From an uncultured Bacteroidales bacterium (lineage in GTDB: Bacteria; Bacteroidota; Bacteroidia; Bacteroidales; F082): 64,000 nt of DNA. The DNA lies in NCBI GenBank assembly GCA_900317055.1, contig ONFF01000007.1, forward strand, positions 48,882 through 112,881. The letters are read 5' to 3'. The notes below the pieces were generated by a model. It had not been told where the DNA came from. It was given only the letters and a program-made list of their open reading frames with translations, and ran no database searches. Position numbers and translations under genes: made by a program. Below are positions 8,354-12,226 of the stretch, in pieces; position 1 is the first letter of the stretch, and each line of letters opens with the position of its first letter.

Positions 8354-8433
8354 CTTGTCTCAATTTTATGGTTTCTTTTCTGTTTTATAGTTTCATTAAT
8401 GCTTTTTTTCAACCTTTATTGCACTGAAAAGTG

Positions 8434-8441
8434 TATTTTTG
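8434..8441 (+). promoter_or_regulatory. Bacteroidetes -7 promoter element (TATTTTTG)
   Basis: TATTTTTG lies inside the 5' extension of the acetyltransferase frame. Transcription would therefore begin after the in-frame codons at 8399-8440, which argues against a start at 8399. Confidence 0.5.
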
Positions 8442-8545
8442 TCGAAAATTTGACTAAGTCGAATCCGACGATTTCAGCGGGCTATGCCAATCAAATTATG
8501 TGCCAGCCTGCTTGGAAAAGTGGTATTTTCAACGAATTGGACAAA

Positions 8546-9559
8546 ATGTTCATCAAGAATGACACGATAACGCTCCGTTGCGCCGAGCCCGAGGATGCCG
8601 GACAGATTTTCCTTTGGGAGAACGACCGCGACATCTGGCGGGTCAGTGGGACGCACGTACCCTACACCCGTTTCCAAATTGAGCAATTCCTTTTAGGCAA
8701 CAATGACTTGTTCAGCAACAAGCAGCTCCGTCTGATGATCGACTTGACCGGAAGCGGACAGTCCATCGGCTGCATCGACATCTTCGACTATGACGGCATC
8801 AACCAACGGGCGGGTTTGGGCATTTTGATTGACAAAGCGTTTCGCCAGCAGGGCTATGCCAAGGCAGCTTTGGCTTTGTGCATTGAATATCTATTCAAGG
8901 ATGTCATGCTGCATCAAGTGTATTGTTCCATCGATGAAACCAACTTGGAAAGCCAGCAATTGTTTGTCGGACAAGGATTTGAACTTTGTGGCAGGCGGAA
9001 AGAATGGTTGAAGACGGCTGAAGGGTATTTGGATGTTTTAGAGTATCAATTGATGTCCCAAATAAACCTTAAAGCAACTCCCCCTTTAAAGGGGGCTGGG
9101 GGGATTAAACCCACCCCAACCGACCGATTCTCAATTTTCACTCCAGACTATCTTCAACAAAACGGGATACACACAGATAACCTGATATTTGTACCATATA
9201 ATCTTCCATACAATCCAAATCTAAAACAACGAAGTCGCAATTTGCGCAATGATTGTCAGTTGTCGGAAAAGCTATTATGGAATCAATTGAAAGGTAAACA
9301 AACTGGCTATACATTTAATCGACAGAAACCCATACTAAACTATATAGCAGATTTTTATTGCAAACAACTTGACTTAGTTATTGAGATAGATGGAGCTTCA
9401 CATTTTAATGAAGATGCTCAAGAATATGACAAGGAAAGAGATCGACAAATGAAAGTATTAGGACTGAAAGTTTTTAGAGTGTTGGACGGCGAGGTGAGAA
9501 AGGATTCTAAACATGTTGCTAAGAGTATTATGAATCAAGTTTTATCAATTACAAAATGA
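8546..9559 (+). CDS. GNAT N-acetyltransferase fused in frame to a DUF559 nuclease-like domain
   Basis: From the ATG at 8546 (after ATTGGACAAA) the frame gives 337 residues. Residues 1-175 are a complete GNAT fold: TLRCAEPEDA at the start, and the acetyl-CoA-binding GILIDKAFRQQGYAKAAL followed by ESQQLFVGQGFELCGRR. This resembles diamine or ribosomal-protein acetyltransferases of the RimJ type. Then comes ATPPLKGAGG, encoded by a palindromic repeat. About 125 residues of DUF559 follow (LSEKLLWNQLKG..., IADFYCKQLDLVIEIDGASHF, DRQMKVLGLKVFRVLD), a domain related to very-short-patch-repair endonucleases with acidic E-x-D residues. The fusion coincides exactly with the left edge of a repeat-bounded cassette. 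The DUF559 part is therefore probably an insertion that removed the GNAT stop codon, not an ancestral domain pairing. An upstream in-frame extension to 8399 is possible but crosses a promoter element. Confidence 0.8.
   Translation: MFIKNDTITLRCAEPEDAGQIFLWENDRDIWRVSGTHVPYTRFQIEQFLLGNNDLFSNKQLRLMIDLTGSGQSIGCIDIFDYDGINQRAGLGILIDKAFRQQGYAKAALALCIEYLFKDVMLHQVYCSIDETNLESQQLFVGQGFELCGRRKEWLKTAEGYLDVLEYQLMSQINLKATPPLKGAGGIKPTPTDRFSIFTPDYLQQNGIHTDNLIFVPYNLPYNPNLKQRSRNLRNDCQLSEKLLWNQLKGKQTGYTFNRQKPILNYIADFYCKQLDLVIEIDGASHFNEDAQEYDKERDRQMKVLGLKVFRVLDGEVRKDSKHVAKSIMNQVLSITK
9079..9106 (+). repeat. Left inverted repeat of the DUF559 cassette
   Basis: The element has the pattern TCCCCCTTTAAAGGGGG followed by CTGGGGGGATT. 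It is translated in frame as TPPLKGAGGI in the upstream protein. Confidence 0.8.
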
Positions 9560-9575
9560 GGAGAAAGCACCTTTG

Positions 9576-9603
9576 AATCCCCCTAACCCCCTTTCAAGGG
9601 GGA
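9576..9603 (-). repeat. Right inverted repeat of the DUF559 cassette
   Basis: Read on the minus strand it is TCCCCCTTGAAAGGGGG followed by TTAGGGGGATT. It differs from the left copy at only a few positions. It lies 17 bases after the DUF559 stop codon. Confidence 0.8.
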
Positions 9604-9649: not shown

Positions 9650-10753
9650 ATGGTCAAAATAGAAACAAAACTTCCCAATGAGAAAAAGTCGCGCAAAAGC
9701 GGCAAGAAGAAAAACGGCAAAAGCACGAAACGAACAATATGGCTCGTGCTCATTATCCTGCTGATATTCGCCGCAGCGTTCGGCTACTGGGGCTACAAAA
9801 CCATTATGTCGCCCAATGTGAAGACCACGGACGGACAACCTATCGAGCTATTCATCCCGACGGGCTCCAATTATGACCAAGTGAAATCCCTCTTGGCGGA
9901 AACGCATTGCATCGTCAACGAGAAGGGCTTCGATTGGTTGGCGGAGAAGAAAGACTTGCCCGCCAACATCCATCCTGGCCACTATGTGCTGAAAAATGGC
10001 ATGACCAACAACCAACTGGTCAACATGCTGTGCGGCGGACTGCAAACACCCGTGAAGGTCACTTTCAACAACATGCGCGATGTGGACATGCTGGCAGGTC
10101 GTATTGCCACCCAAATTGAAGCCGATTCTTCTTCCCTCTCTATCCTGCTTCACAATCAGGATTATGTCAAGCAGCTGGGCTTCAACAATTACACCATCCC
10201 TGCTCTATTCCTGCCCGACACCTATGAGTTCTACTGGAACACCGATTCTGAGGGTTTTGTGAATCGTATGTTCCAAGAGTATAACAAGTTCTGGAACGAA
10301 GAGCGTAAGCAACAGGCCCAAACCAAGGGTTTGACACCCGTACAAGTGAGCACCTTGGCTTCCATTGTCAACAAGGAGACCAACATGAGCGATGAGATGC
10401 CTCGCGTGGCTGGCGTCTACCTCAACCGACTGAAAAGCAACTGGCTGTTACAAGCCGATCCCACTCTTGTCTTCGCCTGGAACGACTTTACTATTAAGCG
10501 CGTGCTCGACCGTCACAAGGAAATCGAATCACCCTATAATACCTACAAATATCCTGGCCTACCTCCTGGCCCCATCTGTATTCCTTCCCTCGCTGCCGTC
10601 AAGGCCGTGTTGAACGCCGAAGACCACCATTACTTCTATTTCTGTGCCAAAGAGGACTTTTCGGGCTACCACAACTTCGCCAAGACCTTGGCCGAGCATA
10701 ACCGCAACGCAGCAAAATACCAACAAGCGTTGAACCAAAGAGGTATAAAATAG
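9650..10753 (+). CDS. mltG: Endolytic murein transglycosylase MltG (YceG-like)
   Basis: The ATG at 9650 gives 367 residues; an upstream TTG at 9620 is possible but less likely. A Lys-rich cytosolic tail (residues 1-28) precedes one membrane helix (TIWLVLIILLIFAAAFGYWGY). A LysM-like segment follows, then the YceG domain with ASIVNKETNMSDEMPRVAGV, whose Glu in the KET motif (about residue 243) is the conserved catalytic candidate. QADPTLVFAW and the C-terminal LPPGPICIPSLAAVKAVLN are also family hallmarks. It cleaves nascent peptidoglycan strands and limits glycan length. It begins 46 bases after the DUF559 cassette, so the insertion now separates it from whatever promoter it used before. Confidence 0.93.
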   Translation: MVKIETKLPNEKKSRKSGKKKNGKSTKRTIWLVLIILLIFAAAFGYWGYKTIMSPNVKTTDGQPIELFIPTGSNYDQVKSLLAETHCIVNEKGFDWLAEKKDLPANIHPGHYVLKNGMTNNQLVNMLCGGLQTPVKVTFNNMRDVDMLAGRIATQIEADSSSLSILLHNQDYVKQLGFNNYTIPALFLPDTYEFYWNTDSEGFVNRMFQEYNKFWNEERKQQAQTKGLTPVQVSTLASIVNKETNMSDEMPRVAGVYLNRLKSNWLLQADPTLVFAWNDFTIKRVLDRHKEIESPYNTYKYPGLPPGPICIPSLAAVKAVLNAEDHHYFYFCAKEDFSGYHNFAKTLAEHNRNAAKYQQALNQRGIK

Positions 10754-10882
10754 CTCCTGGCCATTGGCTGCTGGCTACTGGCAATGGGCTGTTAGCTATT
10801 AGCCAAGCAAGCCAGAGGCCAGAAGCCAAGAGCCAGTAGCAACTGAACAACTGAATAACTGAACAACTAAACAACTGATAAA
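10754..10882. repeat. Low-complexity spacer with two interspersed repeat types
   Basis: The first half is built of variants of GGCTGCTGGCTACTGGC and GCCAGAGGCCAGAAGCCA, mutually near-complementary. The second half consists of AACTGAACAACTGAATAACT units. The second type recurs at about 49430-49460 with at least 27 identical bases. There is no coding potential. Confidence 0.75.
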
Positions 10883-12226
10883 ATGAAAGCATTCAAAGCA
10901 TACGACATCCGTGGTGAATGGGGTACTGACCTTAATGAAACCATCGCCTACCGCATCGGCTATTTCCTGCCTGATGTGCTCGACACCGACATCTATCTCG
11001 TGGGACGCGACATGCGCCTCTCATCGCCCACACTCTTTGATAATCTCACCCGAGGCCTCACCGACCGTGGCAAAAATGTCGACTTTATCGGTCTTTCTAC
11101 TACGCCATTGGTCTATTGGTCGACGGCCAAATACGGCTATGGCGCATCCATCCAAATCACAGCCTCGCACAATCCGAAGCACCACAATGGACTGAAGATT
11201 TCGGCCAAGGATGCCCTCCCCGTGGGCTACGACACGGGCTTGAACCGACTGGAAGCTCTTGTGGCGAGCGATAAAGCCACCGTACCTTGTGAGAAGAAAG
11301 GCATCATTCGCGAAAAGAATGTCTATGCCGATTACTTGGCCTTCCAAAAGCAGTTTGTGGGACCGCACGACAACCTCAACATCGCTGTAGACTGCAGCAA
11401 TGGCATGTCGTCCATCTTTGTCCACGAGCTGATTGGCGAGGTGCATTACATCAACGACACCTTGGACGGCAATTTCCCCAACCATGAACCCAATCCTTTG
11501 GAAGCCAACGCGCAGGAACAAATCAAGGCCTTGGTGAAGAAAGAGAAATGCGACATCGGTCTGCTCTTTGACGGCGACGCCGACCGCATCACCTTCATCG
11601 ACGAGAAAGGCCGTTTCATCAGTCCCGACCTCATCATTGCTTTCTTGGGCGACTATTTCATTGGAGAACAAAAACAAAAAGGCATTGTGTTGCAAGACAT
11701 CCGCAGTTCGCGTGCCATACAGGAATACCTCAACCGATACCAGGCTAAGGTGGAGACTTGGCGCGTGGGTCGTGCCTATGCCGCATTGAAGCTTAGGGAG
11801 TTGGATGGATGCTACGGTGGCGAACTTGCTGGTCACTACTATTTCCGAGATTTCTATTATTCCGACTCTGCCTTGCTGGCCGCATCCATCGTGCTCAGAC
11901 TCTTGTCCGAACGCAAGAAAGAAGGCAAGACCATGAGCCAAATCATTGATGAGATATCACCTTATAACAATTCGGGCGAGATCAATTTCAAAATTGAGCG
12001 CAAACAAGAGGCTATGGATGCCGTCAAAGACCACTTCGCCCAAATCGAGAAGCCGGAGCGTTTCTTGGACTTCGATGGTTATCGCTTGGACTATCCCGAC
12101 TGGTGGCTTAATATCAGGCCTTCCAATACCGAACCTTATCTGCGTTTCCTTTGCGAGGCCAAGAATGAGGTAAAGTTGAAGGAAATCATCGACACGGTGA
12201 CAGGAATTATCCATAGTTTTGAATGA
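10883..12226 (+). CDS. Phosphomannomutase/phosphoglucomutase
   Basis: The 447-residue protein of the alpha-D-phosphohexomutase family interconverts hexose 1- and 6-phosphates for glycan and nucleotide-sugar synthesis. The phosphoserine loop is TASHNPK (Ser95). The Mg2+ loop is LFDGDADR, the sugar-specificity loop includes GGELAGHYYFRD, and the phosphate-binding loop is RPSNTEPYLRF. GGELAGH with the RPSNTEPYLR ending fits the ManB-type bifunctional PMM/PGM group. The start lies directly after the repeat spacer, and it is probably co-transcribed with the DUF2279 gene 32 bases downstream. Confidence 0.93.
   Translation: MKAFKAYDIRGEWGTDLNETIAYRIGYFLPDVLDTDIYLVGRDMRLSSPTLFDNLTRGLTDRGKNVDFIGLSTTPLVYWSTAKYGYGASIQITASHNPKHHNGLKISAKDALPVGYDTGLNRLEALVASDKATVPCEKKGIIREKNVYADYLAFQKQFVGPHDNLNIAVDCSNGMSSIFVHELIGEVHYINDTLDGNFPNHEPNPLEANAQEQIKALVKKEKCDIGLLFDGDADRITFIDEKGRFISPDLIIAFLGDYFIGEQKQKGIVLQDIRSSRAIQEYLNRYQAKVETWRVGRAYAALKLRELDGCYGGELAGHYYFRDFYYSDSALLAASIVLRLLSERKKEGKTMSQIIDEISPYNNSGEINFKIERKQEAMDAVKDHFAQIEKPERFLDFDGYRLDYPDWWLNIRPSNTEPYLRFLCEAKNEVKLKEIIDTVTGIIHSFE

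Follow-up and report, generated by a model that had tools for sequence, protein, structure and literature searches.

A DUF559 nuclease gene between inverted triplex-type palindromes: a probable small mobile element from Bacteroidales

The locus, its protein and its empty sites

The window, i.e. the whole stretch of DNA that was analysed, comprises 64 kb from an uncultured Bacteroidales bacterium. Between the genes for a GNAT acetyltransferase and mltG it carries a DUF559 coding region that is flanked by two palindromes and fused in frame to the GNAT gene. The features are as follows.

8399..9559, plus strand: fusion frame GNAT-palindrome-DUF559 including the stop; the ORF is open from 8399
8546..9078, plus strand: GNAT acetyltransferase host gene (PF13302), ATG at 8546; it has its own stop in relatives with an empty site
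9079..9106, minus strand: left palindrome, CCCCCTTTAAAGGGGG hairpin outermost and G-tract inside; translated as TPPLKGAGG
9079..9603, no strand: inserted element, probably mobile, 525 bp from palindrome to palindrome, delimited by filled and empty sites; 35% G+C inside
9221..9538, plus strand: DUF559 (PF04480) nuclease domain, predicted from Pfam, fold and conserved residues
9576..9603, plus strand: right palindrome, C-tract inside and CCCCCTTTCAAGGGGG hairpin outermost
9650..10753, plus strand: mltG, in relatives the gene that immediately follows the empty site

The two 28-nt palindromes are inverted copies of each other with 25 of 28 bases alike, and they enclose one DUF559 region exactly where the original prediction had placed it. 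The pattern CCCCCTN{2,8}AGGGGG matched twice in the window, both times at the ends of the element (shuffle mean 0.01). The repeat finder did not return this pair, probably because it contains no exact run reaching the 9-nt seed. Both palindromes possess a third G/C tract of only 5–6 nt. By this three-arm purine/pyrimidine architecture, rather than by the strict TM_ECO consensus, they belong to the class of intrastrand triplex motifs. The genome itself contains 34 such palindromes, and a reversed-pattern control gave 0 matches. DUF559 is the sole gene inside the inverted ends, and no clear target duplication as in IS or MITE elements was seen by eye.

It had also been claimed that the left palindrome is translated and joins both proteins; indeed, the frame is open throughout. 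The GNAT domain covers residues 57–194 and PF04480 residues 275–380 of the fusion protein (E 1.7e-26 for the whole protein), which scored 92.7 bits against the DUF559 profile at a curated cut-off of 20.6 and thus falls within the family. No in-frame ATG, GTG or TTG was found by eye between the left palindrome and the DUF559 domain. Lacking a separate start of the usual kind, DUF559 would therefore be made only as a GNAT fusion. The G+C content between the palindromes (35%) was lower than in GNAT (48%) and mltG (50%). Between mltG and the next gene (10755–10887), an imperfect inverted repeat (10774–10790/10824–10840) and an array of the AACTGAAC type with 8-nt spacing (10840–10887) were observed.

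The core of DUF559 is strongly conserved. After rows with fewer than 85 matched residues had been dropped, E, D and E of the core were identical in 179 of 179 domains, as was another D further along; the core H was kept in 178 and the D of E-x-D in 175. The window domain was modelled with AlphaFold together with 36 relatives; the model reached a pLDDT of 89 and was closest to the structural-genomics endonuclease 3HRL (E 4e-6), followed by the homing endonuclease I-Bth0305I (3R3P, E 7e-4). The Vsr ancestry that had been proposed was thus borne out at the level of the fold, with Vsr itself (1VSR and 1CW0) only weakly matched at E 0.07–0.09. Judging from the modelled fold and the conserved D and E-x-D-G..H, DUF559 can be placed among the PD-(D/E)XK / Vsr-EDxHD nucleases, and we infer which of the conserved core residues are catalytic. 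A cyanobacterial DUF559 gene has been placed in the EDxHD homing endonucleases (PMC9403480), and fusions of DUF559 to SPOUT methyltransferases were noted in 2007 (PMC1829167).

The GNAT locus was compared in the best 30 matches in the genus. The insert was located at the same place in eight of them. In nine, as the original prediction had anticipated, there was no insert and GNAT ended with its own stop 0–59 nt from mltG. Twelve had another arrangement, in which mltG was not seen or lay at a greater distance, or which was unclear. The remaining locus (L097 in genome G057) contained a decayed copy after GNAT, in which the right palindrome was kept and the left palindrome and the first half of DUF559 were gone. 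The nearest empty case was G083 with 95% (GNAT) and 94% (mltG) identity to the window genes, and its spacer resembles those found in G070 (filled) and G057 (decayed). When a tree of 18 genomes was built from GNAT+mltG, the filled and empty states needed five changes, at least three of which are forced by well-supported branches. Hence, the insert was gained or lost repeatedly at this site. The target-site duplication that had been looked for was not clearly seen by eye at either the GNAT or the MetH insertion sites, which counts against a selfish element.

DUF559 genes and palindromes in other genomes

The flanks of DUF559 genes from many phyla were scanned within 250 bp for hairpins of the pyrimidine/purine type that also possess a third arm. 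The set consisted of named loci, the best 80 of 570 confirmed stretches, found with a self-made consensus, of which 77 were usable. A triplex-type palindrome was present at 64 of the 77 loci among these best 80, on both sides at 41 and on one side at 23; the 13 loci without one count against a selfish element. At 397 shifted control positions from the same loci, both sides were positive once, one side ten times and none 386 times. With a laxer hairpin rule, five of the 77 loci among the best 80 had no hairpin within 250 bp. The expectation that the palindrome travels with the gene (64/77 versus 11/397 controls) was therefore upheld. Of the two outcomes named beforehand as speaking against the element, neither was encountered: the relatives did not all carry a fusion without palindromes, and the palindromes were not placed at random relative to DUF559 genes.

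Within the genus, 30 DUF559 loci were collected, one of which was cut by the contig end. All 29 usable loci showed a palindrome within 300 bp, 13 of them on both sides. Eight of the 29 represent the GNAT site described here; when these were excluded, the count was 21 of 21. At the level of the phylum, 22 of 28 loci from the best-scoring 30 were positive. Near-identical cores with unshared flanks were observed for two pairs of loci, L029/L030 (99% over 554 bp) and L018/L021 (90% over 663 bp). Some palindromes of the genus have outer extensions (GCGTCCGGTAGGCG or GCGTCGCTTTGCGC) and form mosaic arrays (L018, L021, L014–L017).

Palindromes were also counted per genus genome, using one arm type only, in a set with many incomplete genomes and with shared descent left in the tests. 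The median was 18 in genomes with full-length DUF559 (n = 30) and 0 in those without (n = 69; p = 2e-13). At least five palindromes were found in 28 of the 30 and in nine of the 69 genomes, respectively, and the latter nine count against a selfish element. The effect persisted in genomes of at least 2.8 Mb (22 vs 16 genomes, p = 3e-6) and was less pronounced in the near subclade (25 vs 8 genomes, p = 0.005). Absences of DUF559 in these genome searches may be misses, because the family search did not return PF04480 in its E. coli control even though K-12 W3110 has ycjD, which is annotated as DUF559.

DUF559 also occurs on phages and plasmids (5 and 54 records, respectively; hairpins were scored in one phage and three plasmid records). 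The gene was found between hairpins on a phage scaffold and on a Deinococcus plasmid, and the E. coli record had a hairpin on one side; the third arm was not scored in these three. By the same rule, no hairpin was found near the DUF559 gene of a cyanobacterial plasmid. On the Deinococcus plasmid pDEIPR03, DUF559 is located at 2501–2809 of locus L278, the element lies between hpaB and the next gene, and by eye the inverted ends extend beyond the palindrome with a AGGGCCAGCGTTGCTG outer repeat.

In E. coli K-12 W3110, an exact copy of the triplex-motif hairpin lies 168 bp after ycjD and an imperfect motif was seen by eye at the ycjD stop. No motif of this type was found upstream of ycjD in K-12, and its presence on one side only counts against a selfish element. 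The ycjD interval gave some match in 5,375 of 5,426 E. coli genomes and was covered to at least 80% in only 3,362 (3,364 with another query). Three low-coverage genomes without ycjD (L301–L303) possess an efflux operon after sapF instead and are hence not simple empty sites.

Copies inside host proteins and the ends of the element

DUF559 with translated palindromes was found in frame inside the methionine synthase MetH (in at least two places) and the leucyl-tRNA synthetase LeuS (in two places), and further in RecG, HsdR, HsdM, Eco57I-type methylases and methylmalonyl-CoA mutase. Another host, a class I tRNA synthetase, was read as ValS. HisF, HemF and a SpoU methylase likewise carry DUF559 and palindromes, in their case at the beginning of the protein. 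Pfam identified DUF559 in 20 of 20 such frames and the host family in 19. These loci had been picked for the length of their open frame, so the share of embedded copies is no frequency.

A linker of MetH was surveyed in a single genus, which we take to be Flavobacterium. Among 29 readable loci (30 fetched), it was empty in 27 and filled in two. In the filled linkers, the breakpoints mark the beginning of the palindromes, which take the place of some eight residues of the linker. Two of the 27 loci with an empty linker have an insert elsewhere in metH (L129, L137), and nine further linker inserts were found by picking on frame length. Since in-frame survivors are expected from selection, these copies are no demonstration of frame targeting.

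On a tree of the 179 domains, the host-site labels needed 26 changes compared to a mean of 73 after shuffling. The tree is based on 107 columns, contains close relatives and many unresolved forks, and every unlabelled domain was taken as free-standing, as was done for the polarity counts below. One clade of 40 domains (support 98 by a quick method) consists entirely of copies that are embedded or fused. An intron-borne nuclease (group I or II) was considered and rejected, as none of 13 DUF559 loci matched an Rfam intron family at the gathering threshold. Intein splicing ends were not seen by eye, and Pfam gave no intein in the 20 frames at E 1e-8.

The hairpins at the MetH inserts were searched for as exact patterns, so that variants were not counted. 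G538 gave just two matches in 4.2 Mb, one at each end of its MetH insert, and the single match in G402 adjoins the insert. A palindrome can thus form part of the element and does not have to be a repeat that is frequent in the genome. Of the four matches in G422, two were located at the MetH insert, and the other two lie in a gene for methylmalonyl-CoA mutase. The single match in G473 lies elsewhere and not at its metH insert, which counts against a selfish element. The other eight genomes gave no match to this pattern, and in G334 a second arm type matched four times, once beside the insert.

Several palindromes without DUF559 were observed in coding genes. In the mutase-like gene of G422, named by its likeness to L195, two inverted triplex palindromes flank a host segment in frame (L272, 1473–1621). 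Two proteins of G334 carry a solo palindrome at the same place of their C-terminal tails (L274, 1580–1600 and L275, 1539–1559; SLNPFSKGEGT), presumably type IX secretion tails.

The polarity of the ends differed with the residence of the domain. For the 105 domains not labelled as embedded, both hairpins were outermost in 42 and both tracts in ten, the rest being mixed or missing an end. For the 51 embedded domains, the corresponding numbers were four and 21, again with the rest mixed or incomplete. The difference (p = 1e-7, relatedness not removed) counts against a selfish element. In the genome of the window, four close solo pairs (L037, L044, L051, L054) have their tracts outermost.

Mobility, rival explanations and known systems

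Comparison showed a patchy presence, a decayed copy, an association with palindromes across phyla, residence in frame, clustering by host site and a kept core. These sequence comparisons give good support to a mobile element bounded by palindromes, and with it to the main point of the original prediction, a small repeat-mobilised nuclease element. We consider it probable that these 525 bp represent a small mobile element of the selfish kind, consisting of one DUF559 gene between two inverted triplex-type palindromes, most likely with DUF559 as its motor. The nuclease would cut DNA at or near an empty site or a palindrome of related type, whereupon the element would be copied in by repair, in the way a homing endonuclease gene spreads. 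The palindromes would be the ends of the element and probably part of the recognition site of the nuclease, and solo palindromes and pairs may be non-autonomous leftovers or followers. The hairpin ends would be translated as linkers because insertions that keep the host frame survive.

The palindromes might instead be pre-existing dispersed repeats, such as triplex motifs or fragile sites, that merely serve as landing sites for DUF559. Solo palindromes and pairs are indeed common in the genome of the window, persist in DUF559-free genomes and are found in frame in coding genes as well. However, the two sides of the insert are inverted copies that bound it, the empty sites examined have no palindromes, including the precise ones at nine of the best 30 GNAT matches, and the hairpin pattern was restricted to both insert ends in G538 and to the side of the insert in G402. 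We regard landing sites as an unlikely explanation, and the rarity of the MetH hairpin pattern in those genomes led us to reject dispersed repeats as the sole origin of the palindromes in the flanks. Less likely still is that RAYT transposases (Y1/HUH) spread the palindromes as REPs and that DUF559 is a passenger landing beside or between them. Y1_Tnp occurs in 70 of 99 genus genomes, with six copies in G000, and the number of palindromes correlated with that of RAYTs (rho 0.71; DUF559 0.73), also among genomes without DUF559. In a regression with both and genome size, RAYT remained significant (t = 3.7 vs 7.6 for DUF559). Against this, no triplex palindrome was found within 300 bp at 19 RAYT loci (20 fetched, one cut), compared to 29 of 29 DUF559 loci in the genus, and a laxer hairpin appeared at two of the 19, on one side only. 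Genomes with at least two RAYTs had a median of 18.5 palindromes with DUF559 (n = 26) and 1 without (n = 23), and the hairpin type of the G538 metH insert is found only at that insert. RAYT is thus disfavoured as the mobiliser. Another hairpin, GTTTCCCTACGGGAAAC, lies after two RAYT genes of the genus (L280, L293) and may be the REP that belongs to them.

That DUF559 is a Vsr-type nuclease with an ordinary role in repair or defence and a chance fusion to GNAT, the palindromes being terminators or hitchhiking repeats, appears very improbable to us. A DUF559 protein from Caulobacter is indeed described as the Vsr-like protein VsrA (PMC12907096), and PADLOC gave weak matches of DUF559 to a methyl-directed restriction enzyme and DpdF. 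Such a role fails to explain the in-frame copies in MetH, LeuS, RecG or HemF, the patchy presence and the pairing with palindromes across phyla.

The selfish DUF559 element resembles several known systems in part. Rickettsia palindromic elements are palindromes inserted in frame in protein genes, as here, and differ in that, to our knowledge, they carry no nuclease gene. REPtrons have one nuclease gene with inverted palindromes, and additional palindromes, solo or in pairs, at other places of the genome, which is the layout of the DUF559 element, too. They are composed of TnpA-REP/RAYT and REPs (PMC8266576), and their nuclease is an HUH single-strand transposase, whereas that of the DUF559 element is predicted to be PD-(D/E)XK/Vsr-like. 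The element is no REPtron, as its nuclease belongs to PF04480 and the 19 RAYT loci of the genus lack these palindromes. I-Bth0305I is a homing endonuclease of the EDxHD (Vsr-like) family (PMC3943268). The DUF559 element shares with homing genes of this type the fold, the clustering by host site in conserved genes and the patchy occurrence, and as expected for a homing endonuclease gene, site-specific insertion and empty alleles in relatives were found at GNAT-mltG and MetH. Unlike them, it gave no Rfam intron in 13 loci and no intein ends by eye, has palindromic ends and stays in the host frame. By analogy, its way of working may be that of a homing endonuclease gene whose ends resemble those of a REPtron, and it is assigned to neither.

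The class of palindromes was described before as intrastrand triplex motifs (TM, TM_ECO, earlier PIT) by Holder et al. in 2015, who found them abundant, patchy and without known function and reported never finding mobility genes beside them (PMC4666352). The palindromes of the window have in common with these motifs the order of pyrimidine arm, short spacer, arm, loop and purine arm, the many copies, the patchy distribution and the inverted pairs. They differ by their pairing with DUF559, as the main text of that description contains no nuclease pairing and no words beginning with endonuclease or DUF (PMC4666352). A full-text literature search, covering mostly articles other than subscription papers and preprints, found no mobile element of DUF559 and palindromes.

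A wider reading, which we offer tentatively and hold to be possible rather than probable, is that the element represents a previously unrecognised, bacteria-wide class of mobile elements. A Vsr-like nuclease of ~110 residues would be both motor and cargo, would recognise its own triplex-forming palindromic ends, would reside in essential proteins as a domain that is not trimmed away and would be the missing mobiliser of TM/PIT repeats, including those of E. coli. Since E. coli K-12 carries ycjD close to a motif of this kind, a laboratory strain is available for testing the idea. The finding provides a candidate gene for what spreads the G/C-rich triplex palindromes of many genomes, and an insert that conserved proteins would tolerate with no known means of splicing it out. 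For DUF559, it suggests selfish DNA as the likely biology, and a selfish element would explain its odd fusions with MetH, LeuS, RecG or HemF.
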